Assembly (NCBI GenBank): GCA_905618915.1
Contig: CAJQTI010000007.1
Coordinates: 1-64,000 of the forward strand
From: an uncultured Candidatus Pelagibacter sp.
Lineage (GTDB): Bacteria; Pseudomonadota; Alphaproteobacteria; Pelagibacterales; Pelagibacteraceae
Direction of reading: 5' to 3'
DNA length: 64,000 nucleotides
In this document: piece after piece, positions 12,870 through 64,000 of the stretch
Numbering within the stretch: position 1 is the stretch's first letter
Layout: the number at the start of each line of letters is the position of its first letter
Notes under the pieces: model-generated
Databases searched by the model: none
Seen by the model: only the letters and a program-made list of their open reading frames with translations
Told to the model about the DNA's origin: nothing
Position numbers and translations under genes: made by a program

Positions 12870-12954
12870 GCCCTCGTGGTGAAATTGGTAGACACAACGG
12901 ACTTAAAATCCGTGCCTTTTTGGAGTGCCAGTTCGAGTCTGGCCGAGGGCACCA
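12870..12954 (+). tRNA. tRNA-Leu (UAA)
   Basis: 85 nt with encoded CCA. Acceptor GCCCTCG pairs with CGAGGGC, the TTCGAGTC T-loop region is present, there is a long variable arm (class II, as for Leu) and the anticodon loop is CTTAAAA with anticodon TAA. The coding start of nadK lies only 4 nt after the CCA end. Confidence 0.97.
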
Positions 12955-27715: not shown

Positions 27716-27743
27716 TTGACAATCAGAGATTTAATAGTATTTT
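27716..27743 (+). promoter_or_regulatory. Predicted promoter of the str operon (rpsL-rpsG-fusA)
   Basis: TTGACA at 27716-27721 and TATTTT at 27738-27743 are 16 bp apart. The predicted start near 27750 leaves a leader of about 109 nt before rpsL, the longest in the ribosomal block. The S10, spc and alpha genes downstream would be transcribed from here as well. Confidence 0.6.
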
Positions 27744-27749
27744 GACGCT

Positions 27750-27858
27750 GTTTTTGGTTGGAATGTAGTACCTACTTTATGGAACTAAACGCTGCCACAA
27801 AATAACCTGTCAGTTATTTTCATTCAAAAATAAATTAATTAATTAATTAAAAAAATTT
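27750..27858 (+). promoter_or_regulatory. Structured 5' leader of rpsL (candidate cis-regulatory RNA)
   Basis: From the predicted start, TTTGGTT (27753-27759) pairs with AACTAAA (27783-27789, one G-U), enclosing GTAG-TAC-CTAC (27765-27775). A second hairpin follows: AAAATAAC (27799-27806), loop CTGTCA, GTTATTTT (27813-27820). An AATT repeat tract then leads to the ATG. The position, ahead of an operon encoding the known autoregulator S7, suggests a ribosomal-protein leader; this is inference, as I recognise no named RNA family. Confidence 0.45.
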
Positions 27859-61314: not shown

Positions 61315-62685
61315 TTGTCTAAAGCATTAAAATTAACCAAAGATCCCATTTGGGAGCTACTTAGAAAAGTAACAATTCCAGCTAGTGTCGGTTCATTATT
61401 TCAAACATTTTATAATTTAGTTGATACGTGGTTTGCAGGAAGAATTTCTGCTGAAGCTATAGGTGCAATTGCTAAATCATTTCCTATATATTTTGTAATA
61501 ATTGCTGTTGGTGTTGGTATTGGTGCTGCAACAAACTCATGCATTGGTAATTTATTAGGTGCAAAACAAGATAATAAAGCATCATTGTTAATTGCTCAAT
61601 CTGTAATCTTTGCACTGATTATTTCTGTTGTTGTCACCTTGTTTGGATTAAATGCATCTAATTTTCTTTTAACAGTAATGGGCTCTGATGCCGCTAGTAT
61701 AGCTTTAACAAGAGAATATTTAGATATAATTTTTTACGGTACTTTTATTGTAATGATTCAAATTTCTTTAAATGGAGCCTTAAATGCTCAAGGAGATACT
61801 AAAAGTTATAGAAATGTTTTAATATTTAGTTTCTTTTTAAACATATTTTTAAATCCATTATTTATCTGGGGATACGGAATTGTTCCAGCTTATGGTATAG
61901 GTGGTCTTGCTATAGCAACTGTAATTGCCCAGTCAGTAGGTACCTTTTATTTAGCGTATAAAATTAACTCATGTAAATTGAAAAAGTATTTATCAATTAA
62001 ATGTTTTATTCCTAAATTGATATTATTAAAAGAATTGTTCACACAAGCACTACCCATTATGATTAGCATGCTGTTTATTGGTGTTGGTATTTTTAATATT
62101 TTATATTTTATTGGTCAATTTGGTGATCTTGCAACAGCTGGTTACGGTGCAGCCTTAAGAGTGGAGCAAGTTTTTTTATTACCAGTTATTGGATTGAACA
62201 CTGCAGTACTTTCTATCGGTGGACAAAATTTTGGTGCTAAAAATTATGACCGTATAAGAGAATTATATTCGAAAGCTTTATTATTTGGATCATCTTTTAT
62301 GGCTGTTGCAGGTGTTATATTATTTCTTGGTGCGGAGTTTTTTGTGTCTCAATTTACAGATAACCAAGAAGCTATATTTCATGGTACTATATATTTAAAA
62401 ATAGCTGCATTAATTGCGCCTGTTTACCCTGTGTTTTTTATAACTACAGCTGTATTTCAAGCTGTTAAGAAACCTATCTATAGTCTTTATTTAAGTGTTT
62501 TAAGGTTATCAGCGTTACCTTTCTTGTCTCTTTGGTATGTAATTAATATCAGAGGTGGGGATTACTCAGATATATTCTATACTATAATGGCAACTAATTG
62601 GTTTATAGGTATTGCAGTAATCATATTCATTGGATATTTTTTAAATAATGTTTTTAAACAAAAAAAAAATCATTTTAGTTATTAG
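61315..62685 (+). CDS. MATE family efflux transporter
   Basis: 456 residues with about twelve membrane helices. It starts at TTG 61315, supported by an AGGA sequence 7 bases earlier and a family-like N-terminus (KALKLTKDPIWELLRKVTIPASVGSLFQTFYNLVD). AEAIGAIAKSFP and GAALRVEQVFLLPVIGLNTA are MATE-like segments. It probably exports organic cations or metabolites using an ion gradient. It overlaps the next gene by 38 bases. Confidence 0.9.
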   Translation: MSKALKLTKDPIWELLRKVTIPASVGSLFQTFYNLVDTWFAGRISAEAIGAIAKSFPIYFVIIAVGVGIGAATNSCIGNLLGAKQDNKASLLIAQSVIFALIISVVVTLFGLNASNFLLTVMGSDAASIALTREYLDIIFYGTFIVMIQISLNGALNAQGDTKSYRNVLIFSFFLNIFLNPLFIWGYGIVPAYGIGGLAIATVIAQSVGTFYLAYKINSCKLKKYLSIKCFIPKLILLKELFTQALPIMISMLFIGVGIFNILYFIGQFGDLATAGYGAALRVEQVFLLPVIGLNTAVLSIGGQNFGAKNYDRIRELYSKALLFGSSFMAVAGVILFLGAEFFVSQFTDNQEAIFHGTIYLKIAALIAPVYPVFFITTAVFQAVKKPIYSLYLSVLRLSALPFLSLWYVINIRGGDYSDIFYTIMATNWFIGIAVIIFIGYFLNNVFKQKKNHFSY

Positions 62686-63133
62686 TGTTTCTTCACTAAT
62701 ATTTTTCTTAATTTTTAATCAAGTCAAATCACAAGATCTTAGAGTTGTAGATGGTGACACAATTCATCTTAATGGAGAAAAAATTAGATTTACTGGAATA
62801 GATACACCTGAATTAAAACAAACTTGCCTTAAAGACGGTGTAAAAGATCCTTGTGGAGTTAAAGCAAAACAAATCCTTAATAATAAAATTGGAAACAATG
62901 AAGTTGAATGTATTAGTGAGGGAATTGATCAATACAAAAGAACATTAGCTGAATGTTTTGTAAATAATGAAAGTCTATCGAGCTATTTAGTTAGAAGTGG
63001 CTATGCATTTGCTTACAGAAGATATTCAAAAAAGTTTGTACCAGATGAGGATTATGCAAGAATCAATAAAATAGGCATGTGGTCTATGGAGTTTGATTAT
63101 CCTTGGGATTATAGAAAATCTAAAAAAAATTAA
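62648..63133 (+). CDS. Secreted thermonuclease (SNase) family protein
   Basis: 161 residues. An N-terminal signal or anchor helix (KKKIILVISVSSLIFFLIF) precedes an OB-fold nuclease: RVVDGDTIHLNGEKIRFTGIDTPEL, with the Arg and Glu active residues, and DQYKRTLAECFVNNESL, the second Arg. SYLVRSGYAFAYRRYS and DYARINKIGMWSMEFDYPWDYRK finish the domain. It would cut nucleic acids in the periplasm or outside, possibly for nucleotide scavenging. Its start lies in the 3' end of the MATE gene. Confidence 0.9.
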   Translation: MFLNKKKIILVISVSSLIFFLIFNQVKSQDLRVVDGDTIHLNGEKIRFTGIDTPELKQTCLKDGVKDPCGVKAKQILNNKIGNNEVECISEGIDQYKRTLAECFVNNESLSSYLVRSGYAFAYRRYSKKFVPDEDYARINKIGMWSMEFDYPWDYRKSKKN

Positions 63134-63140
63134 AGCTATA

Positions 63141-63167
63141 TGGGGCGTTCTGTTACCCGGTGCCCCA
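63141..63167. other. GC-rich hairpin in an AT-rich intergenic gap
   Basis: TGGGGC (63141-63146) pairs with GCCCCA (63162-63167) around a 15-nt loop that contains TTACCCGG. It sits in the 51-bp gap between the convergent SNase and GNAT genes. Its GC content stands out from the surroundings, which suggests constrained RNA structure. It could be a terminator, but there is no clear U tract on either strand. Strand of function is not known. Confidence 0.5.
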
Positions 63168-63184
63168 GGTTTCTAATTAATCTC

Positions 63185-63445
63185 TTATTTGTTAGTTTTA
63201 AATAGTCTTTCACCCAAAGGACTGATTGGGTCTTGAGGTGTAGGCTCAATTTTAGTTTTTTCTTCAACAATACTTAATAGCTTTTTAGCAAGTCCTTTAC
63301 GTCTAAATATGGGATTAACAAAAATATACTCAACTTCTGCTTCTTCGTTATACCTAACAAAACCAATTGTGGTATTGATATTTTTGAATGTGATCACACC
63401 ATCGCTAAACGAAATATCATAGTTTGTGCTATTTAATTCATTCAT
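63185..63445 (-). CDS. Small GNAT-like acetyltransferase domain protein
   Basis: 86 residues. EVEYIFVNPIFRRKGLAKKLLSIVEEKT (about 38-65) resembles GNAT motif A, including the acetyl-CoA pyrophosphate loop R-R-K-G-L-A. The protein is about half the length of a complete GNAT fold, similar to very short YjdJ-type members, so it may be a compact acetyltransferase or a degenerate one. It shares one base with the end of the ABC permease gene upstream (TAATG), suggesting co-transcription. Confidence 0.65.
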   Translation of the reverse strand: MNELNSTNYDISFSDGVITFKNINTTIGFVRYNEEAEVEYIFVNPIFRRKGLAKKLLSIVEEKTKIEPTPQDPISPLGERLFKTNK

Positions 63446-64000
63446 TAATTGTTTCCATCTTTTTTAAGTCTTTTTTCTAATTTTCTTACAAAGAAAGAAA
63501 CAATTAATATTAAGATTAAATATTCTAGAATTAAGAATGTATAAATCTCAAGAGGTCTATATGTTGAAACAACTAGTTCATTAGCTTTTCTAGTTAGATC
63601 TGCAATTCCTATAATTGATACTAATGAAGACATTTTCAAAACATAAACAAACTGATTACCGAGTGCTGGTAGAATATTTTTAATTGCTTGTGGAAGTATT
63701 ACCAACCTCAATCTTTTATAAAAAGTTAAACCTAATGACGAGCCAGCTTCCCACTGTGATTTTTTAATTGAGTTTATACCTGCTCTAAAAATTTCTGCTT
63801 GAAAAGCACTTTCACTTATTGCTAATGCAATAATTCCTGAAACAAATGGACTAAAGCTTAATCCTGTCATTATAGGAAGCCCGTAATAAACCCACAAAAT
63901 TAAAACTAATAACGGTATAGCTCTTACAATTTCAACGTATCCAATATTTATATAAGTTAAAAACTTATTCTTAGCTAAAGAAGGTATTGCAACTACAAAT
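63445..64000 (-). CDS. Amino-acid ABC transporter permease (partial, N-terminus beyond the window)
   Basis: At least 185 residues, open to the window edge in frame. Membrane segments alternate with the HisM/GlnP-type sequence YVEIVRAIPLLVLILWVYYG and the cytoplasmic EAA loop AEIFRAGINSIKKSQWEAGSSLGLT that docks the ATPase. QAIKNILPALGNQFVYVLKMSSL is also typical. It belongs to polar amino-acid uptake systems; the binding protein and ATPase genes are not in view. Confidence 0.9.
   Translation of the reverse strand, partial: FVVAIPSLAKNKFLTYINIGYVEIVRAIPLLVLILWVYYGLPIMTGLSFSPFVSGIIALAISESAFQAEIFRAGINSIKKSQWEAGSSLGLTFYKRLRLVILPQAIKNILPALGNQFVYVLKMSSLVSIIGIADLTRKANELVVSTYRPLEIYTFLILEYLILILIVSFFVRKLEKRLKKDGNN

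Follow-up and report, generated by a model that had tools for sequence, protein, structure and literature searches.

The GC-rich hairpin core at positions 63142–63166 of the window (the whole 64 000-nt stretch of SAR11 DNA analysed here) is, with a probability of roughly 0.7, an attachment site, now vacant, of a gene-cassette system of SAR11 that recombines at the 3′-terminal hairpin of the two-piece tmRNA gene. As far as sequence comparison can tell, the core is demonstrably both the end of the tmRNA gene (ssrA) and the boundary of the cassettes, an exchange from core to core is well supported at three gene junctions, and site-specific recombination in trans appears to be the likeliest mechanism. 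In such a mechanism, a cassette would consist of cargo and one copy of the core, probably as a circle, and would insert core to core; it would be lost by the same core-to-core route, leaving one core behind, as in the window. The enzyme would act in trans, because no full recombinase gene is seen in the arrays, and a candidate for this role is the one conserved XerD-like tyrosine recombinase that SAR11 carries.

SAR11 bacteria are among the most abundant marine cell types and carry few mobile elements. The cassette sites would bear on how the small SAR11 genome acquires its variable genes. With a short exact tag marking the ends of cassettes, part of the variable genome would become readable by machine, and the ssrA end and the cassette core provide two defined substrates on which one candidate enzyme could be assayed directly for recombination.

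Location, composition and fold of the hairpin

The original prediction described a TGGGGC/GCCCCA hairpin between convergent genes, conspicuously GC-rich for this genome and lacking a terminator U tract, and these features stand. The hairpin lies at 63141–63167, inside the 51-nt gap between the convergent nuc and GNAT genes (Table 1). Its 27-mer has a GC content of 66.7%, compared with 30.6% for the window, where only 49 of the 63 974 27-mers are equally GC-rich; these are grouped in eight clusters, four of which (at 12922, 14100, 15088 and 16584) overlap Rfam tRNA genes. The loop had been misread as the 8-nt TTACCCGG: the 7-bp DNA stem TGGGGCG/TGCCCCA encloses 13 nt, and the RNA fold contains an additional bulged 3-bp inner stem, with a loop of 13–15 nt across readings.

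Table 1. Features at the nuc junction of the window.
Feature	Position	Strand	Remark
nuc (SNase-family nuclease gene), left neighbour	62648–63133	+	
Left flank	63134–63141	+	Identical to the left-hand flank of the first array core in G420
Left stem arm TGGGGCG	63141–63147	+	DNA stem reading
25-nt core (att-like site)	63142–63166	+	Exact copy of the ssrA 3′-terminal hairpin, reverse orientation
Right stem arm TGCCCCA	63161–63167	+	DNA stem reading
Right flank	63167–63184	+	Two differences in 18 from the flank right of the last G420 array core
GNAT-family gene	63185–63445	−	Absent here in the 12 loci with the nuc stop directly at the permease
Transporter permease gene, conserved right neighbour	63445–63999	−	Continues past the window edge; named from sequence

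As a fold alone, the hairpin is within chance expectation, and it is its exact recurrence that is beyond chance. The window contains two perfect six-bp GC-rich stems, compared with 1, 2, 0, 0 and 3 in five first-order Markov shuffles, and the z value of the regional RNA fold is −0.89. A terminator scan of 62900–63400 lists only 63224–63251; the loop limit of the scan is 8 nt, and the absence of a U tract after the hairpin is therefore taken from the sequence itself. The Rfam search gave no gathering hit at the hairpin, and the best match in 62900–63400 at the relaxed threshold, IMES-1 with an E value of 0.47, was dismissed as chance. The window locus is not a tmRNA gene either, as judged by the lack of an RF01849 gathering hit at 63142 and of a predicted tmRNA. 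The idea of a structured RNA or regulatory island survives in part: what recurs here is the tmRNA 3′ end in copy, and the segment does not represent a known RNA family of its own. Judged by its sequence, the hairpin looks like neither a separate small RNA nor an intrinsic terminator, although it may have an RNA or terminator role in addition. Elsewhere in the window, the rpsL sRNA (RF01823) matches at 27742–27834 with 88 bits.

Identity with the 3′ end of ssrA

The core is letter-for-letter identical to the 3′-terminal hairpin of the tmRNA gene of the host. This permuted, two-piece gene lies on another contig, C30, and matches RF01849 with 222 bits over model positions 1–355 of 355; ARAGORN reads its tag as ANESYAIAA. 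In the host genome and in its relatives, both ARAGORN and RF01849 locate the core at the 3′ terminus of the tmRNA gene, so that the core has the 3′-end sequence of alpha_tmRNA. Three exact copies are present in the host genome (the window copy, the ssrA end on C30 and a third beside ssrA), compared with none of the reversed control pattern. The window copy and the ssrA end agree over 27 nt (GGGGC...CCCCAG) and then diverge; at the window core, the tmRNA reading would be on the − strand. The small-RNA reading was abandoned after this match to the ssrA end.

In the sister family, a changed stem (GGGAG/CTCCC) surrounds a similar loop at the ssrA end in all four genomes searched, which shows that conservation of the loop belongs to tmRNA itself. 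In genera g9 and g12, the ssrA end has the variant CACCTTGC in place of CACCGGGT, and core-like copies unlike this ssrA end occur at three loci away from ssrA. Both genera are mostly without core matches in the search of 397 genomes described below; these missing matches say little because of the ssrA variant and the core-like copies elsewhere. Weak RF01849 matches coincide with core-like copies off ssrA in L237–L239 (genomes G047, G040 and G012). Two further observations concern gene calls around the core. Read backwards, the core encodes the peptide GAPGNRTP in spurious antisense ORFs (L028 and L015), which probably gives rise to mistaken gene calls. On contig C30 of the host genome, the cassette gene beside ssrA (L110:10130–10570) contains 95 nt with 88% identity to thyX, in frame; by this match, it is a chimeric cassette gene.

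Distribution of the core and architecture of the arrays

The search of SAR11 and alphaproteobacterial genomes proposed in the original prediction found the exact core in 35 genome_contigs stretches, assigned to Pelagibacter (-aceae/-ales), Fonsibacter or unnamed alphaproteobacteria. At up to two mismatches, the core is present in 319 of 397 same-family genomes, with ssrA itself making up a large share and the reversed control giving none among the matches listed. Absence from all relatives is thus ruled out for the sequence, yet the core occurs at the nuc junction in only 2 of 30 loci. Copy numbers are low, with 0–4 per genome at two mismatches and a maximum of seven in a single locus at four.

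We compared 68 loci, each of which was fetched for containing a core match. ARAGORN calls ssrA in 54 of them; one more is not called by ARAGORN but has thyX alongside, and the remaining 13 do not contain ssrA. Cassette arrays are found next to ssrA as well as at several other junctions between genes, few in number, and the direct repeats of the RNA-gene end bound inserted DNA. Across these and other loci, neighbouring cores (less than 6 kb apart, at up to four mismatches) have the same orientation in 73 of 73 pairs and are spaced by 195–3426 bp, with a median of 804 bp. The ORFs between them number mostly one to a few (range 0–8). The core is nearly invariant and its flanks drift, although the mismatch limit selects for this pattern in part. 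The densest array seen, at an rnhA–prx junction (L142:6732–9141), has seven cores with 0–4 mismatches in 2.4 kb, and the small ORFs between these cores are mostly on the opposite strand.

Vacant and occupied alleles at three junctions

Empty and occupied alleles joined at the repeat were found at the nuc, rnhA–prx (L193 and L211) and pnp–fabI (L244 and L175) junctions. At the nuc junction, the window has one core and the sister genome G420 has five, two exact and three with one mismatch, in the order nuc–core–cassette–core–cassette–core–cassette–core–cassette–core–GNAT. The extra segment in G420 comprises 7009 nt with four cassettes between the same flanks. These flanks align with the window without gaps and abut the cores, with 96.0% identity over 1641 nt on the left and 92.2% over 834 nt on the right; the cassettes extend rightward of the position matching the window core.

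The window and G420 are the two nuc loci that have the core. In 12 of the 30 loci, which lack both the core and the GNAT gene, the nuc stop lies directly against the permease gene (gap of −4 to 0); the remaining 16 show different neighbours or carry inserts and likewise lack the core. A GNAT homologue was found in three of 13 genomes searched (that of the window, G420 and G416), and the G416 copy is at another place. Since few nuc loci and genomes have them, the core and the GNAT gene seem to be gains of the small clade of the window and G420, and the GNAT gene possibly arrived together with the core site. It is oriented opposite to the cassette direction and has no second core, and no copy of it was found inside any cassette among the loci examined. 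In another genome, G421, a run of N stands between two near-identical copies just past nuc (L128:3279–3602), a probable assembly join.

The rnhA–prx junction was compared in 30 loci, in which the allele classes overlap and some loci are unreadable as far as prx. Nine are empty, with stop codons overlapping by 6–8 bp, and seven carry only the hairpin (an insert of about 36 nt), six of these within the four-mismatch limit; a core at up to four mismatches is present in 15. The occupied alleles L193 and L211 have a chimeric core at each of their two junctions, the outer halves being of the resident type (TTRGGG at the rnhA side and CCCTAC at the prx side) and the inner halves of the cassette type, which locates the crossover within the core. 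Four of the seven hairpin-only alleles have the resident right end GCCCTAC, and L208 instead has the cassette-like GCCCCTTC. In L156, L142 and L179, the right end is of the resident type and the arms are degenerate; the resident copy of L220 has lost the stem, and some degenerate resident copies retain a GGGCA/TGCCC stem. The resident sites have little in common with the cassette beyond the core of about 20 nt. Other alleles at this junction have a core at one side only (L202), a 25–26-nt insert that is not the core (L198 and L201) or a 409-nt insert without a core (L218 and L219).

Of 30 loci at the pnp–fabI junction, 29 are readable, and six of these have a core at up to four mismatches. Empty alleles are seen in L254 and L258 and a hairpin-only allele in L244. 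In loci from another set, L175 has a gene between two cores together with resident flanks, and L170 has a gene with one core. Many loci have other genes and no core, which makes this junction a general hot spot. As far as these alignments go, the clean alleles are the expected product of reciprocal exchange between two cores, whether by a recombinase or by homologous recombination.

Cassette cargo

The Pfam scan of the cargo covered 63 proteins, after 17 of 80 ORFs, mostly duplicates, short or overlapping, had been dropped by hand. Among the best 25 of 36 families, SHOCT matched five proteins, FkbM methyltransferase three and Mrr-type nuclease two, and single matches included a DNA methylase, a trypsin, an inverse autotransporter, a pyrophosphatase, a plastocyanin and pilin-type leader families. 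The leader MKK.L.I is present in 17 of the 63 proteins, or 13 with a stricter pattern. A comparison of 75 cassettes gave sequence common to 266 pairs, and the local alignments comprise nine of near full length, 140 of the 5′ end only, 84 of the 3′ end only and 179 others. This distribution suggests exchange of cassette ends and middles. Mobility is indicated by two cassettes: the copies of one, in an ssrA array and at the nuc junction, are 78% alike over 1033 nt, and those of the other, one linked to ssrA and one at a remote site, are 96% alike over 368 nt. A gene for a secreted-type protein, 'SCPMM' (68 amino acids; 90 in the L175 call), stands beside cores in L038, L041, L116, L163, L170 and L175, at junctions that we take to be those of ssrA, of pnp–fabI and near a sodB-like gene.

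Search for a recombinase

Tyrosine recombinases (PF00589) were sought in 16 genomes and found in 14, with one match in 12 of these. The host genome, which is about 60% complete, gave no PF00589 match. In the 13 comparable genomes (G083 left out), recombinase and core are at least 200 kb apart or on different contigs. The common recombinase (about 317 amino acids) is XerD-like, with 72–80 bits compared with a curated NCBIfam Xer cut-off of 329.6. Of 35 same-family genomes, 31 have this gene. A single, distinct XerD-like gene is thus usual in the window's family, whereas all four genomes of the sister family f2 (G437–G440) have two weak XerC/D-like matches each.

Around the recombinase genes, no core was found at up to six mismatches in 16 stretches of about 3.5 kb, some of them overlapping. 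A profile of ten recombinases gave no hit among 764 ORFs of the att-bearing loci, and a scan of the 68 loci gave one partial match of about 71 amino acids, in L143 at 7 kb from ssrA. Apart from this fragment, neither an IntI gene beside an array, as in integrons, nor an internal tyrosine recombinase, as in tycheposons and integrative elements, was found. The XerD-like enzyme is a candidate because no other recombinase is at hand, and nothing else ties it to the core.

Comparison with known systems

Integron gene cassettes are tandem, co-oriented and small and are separated by a hairpin-forming site, which gives them a likeness to the SAR11 arrays. The boxes of the integron attC site have the motifs RYYYAAC and GTTRRRY. 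Unlike an integron site, the SAR11 core has no attC boxes, neither the R nor the L box being found in the exact 27-mer or its complement, and no full integrase gene stands beside the arrays examined. The relevant part of a 2007 survey of SAR11 hypervariable regions likewise reports no attC sites there (PMC2217521).

Closer parallels are found among islands anchored at RNA genes, as described in excerpts of the papers cited. In Ca. Actinomarinales, gene cassettes at tRNA genes carry tell-tale partial tRNA repeats (PMC7771536). The SAR11 case differs from these tRNA-anchored additive flexible genomic islands in that the repeat is the tmRNA 3′ end, that some sites lie at a distance from the RNA gene, and that alleles in the empty, hairpin-only and occupied states are available for comparison. 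In the additive island fGI-2 of Methylophilaceae, the last 20 bp of tRNA-Lys recur; copies of an RNA-gene 3′ end thus mark a variable island of mostly unknown function in both groups, although the repeat there is tRNA-Lys and not tmRNA (PMC10872708). Tycheposons, according to the same excerpt, are likewise islands in streamlined marine bacteria with an RNA gene at the border, but they are larger (4–200 kb) and one was reported with the tyrosine recombinase gene xerD (via PMC10872708), whereas no tyrosine recombinase was seen in the SAR11 cassettes. The pdif (dif) modules of Acinetobacter resemble the SAR11 cassettes as small adaptive modules between recombinase sites, with mobilization by the host Xer system in trans proposed. 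Their sites are 28-bp and dif-type and lie mainly on plasmids (PMC6449649), whereas the SAR11 sites are tmRNA-derived, without apparent dif character, chromosomal and uniform in orientation.

For SAR11 strain HTCC1062, an excerpted listing places the tmRNA gene between thyX and COG4696 (PMC2704228), and from this listing we infer an unoccupied arrangement. The term 'tmRNA' does not occur in the main text of Ecogenomics of the SAR11 clade (PMC7318151). Among open-licence PMC papers, in the portions available, 'additive' islands at RNA-gene ends are already known for tRNA, and no description was found of SAR11 tmRNA cassettes, of the off-gene sites or of their cargo.

Alternative explanations

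On the mechanism of the cassette system, two accounts compete. In the first, which we hold tentatively as a possibility, SAR11 has an integron-like system without an integrase of its own: the tmRNA hairpin site would be seeded at several convergent junctions, the single XerD-like enzyme of the lineage would act in trans, and the shuffled genes, many of secreted type with common leader and end modules, would yield new proteins by swapping of their middles. The other account, which appears rather unlikely, keeps the same anatomy but has no dedicated recombinase, the repeats serving as landing pads at which imported DNA recombines by homology, so that islands would grow additively through crossover between repeats. 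It agrees with the lack of a full recombinase gene in the loci and with the many pnp–fabI inserts without a core, and the longer 5′ and 3′ end modules (140 and 84 alignments) would add homology beyond the core. The resident rnhA–prx sites argue against it, because a core of about 20 nt, to which their match with the cassette is nearly confined, is shorter than the length usually required for RecA exchange. The near-invariance of the core against drifting flanks, with its partial selection effect, and the co-orientation of the cores also speak against it, though recombination between repeats would favour co-orientation too.

Explanations that dispense with the cassette system fare less well. 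The hairpin would be very improbable as a terminator or RNA-processing element between convergent genes retained for its fold: the copies do recur at convergent gene pairs, and some degenerate ones keep their stem, but no U tract follows, at least one resident copy (L220) has no stem, the rnhA–prx pair is without the hairpin in 9 of 30 loci, and the loop is conserved in tmRNA itself. Small, dispersed intergenic hairpins with hairpin-only insertions also recall REP-like palindromes moved by a RAYT/Y1 transposase; this is extremely improbable here, given that Y1_Tnp (PF01797) is found in none of 16 genomes (5 of 14 named controls being positive) and that the core has so few copies per genome and per locus. 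Somewhat less remote, though still improbable, is an att scar of prophages or integrative elements targeting ssrA, each copy being left by an unrelated element. The core is indeed the 3′ end of ssrA, and tmRNA genes are described as common island integration sites in the available part of PMC11915505. However, the exact core is found in none of the IMG/VR stretches, and the degenerate core is found in eight, in all of which it lies under a permuted tmRNA gene with no second core within the stretch. The ssrA-end query gave no phage record, no full integrase stands beside the arrays, and many inserts are single genes with common end modules. One cassette protein, the single cargo sought in viral contigs and phage records, was not found there.

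The eight IMG/VR contigs (L069–L076) are of interest in their own right. All eight carry a permuted tmRNA gene with the tag ...ADENLALAA and a core-bearing end, and the ORFs beside it look like ribonucleotide reductase subunits, an assignment that we take from their appearance. These contigs may represent SAR11 myophages with their own tmRNA.
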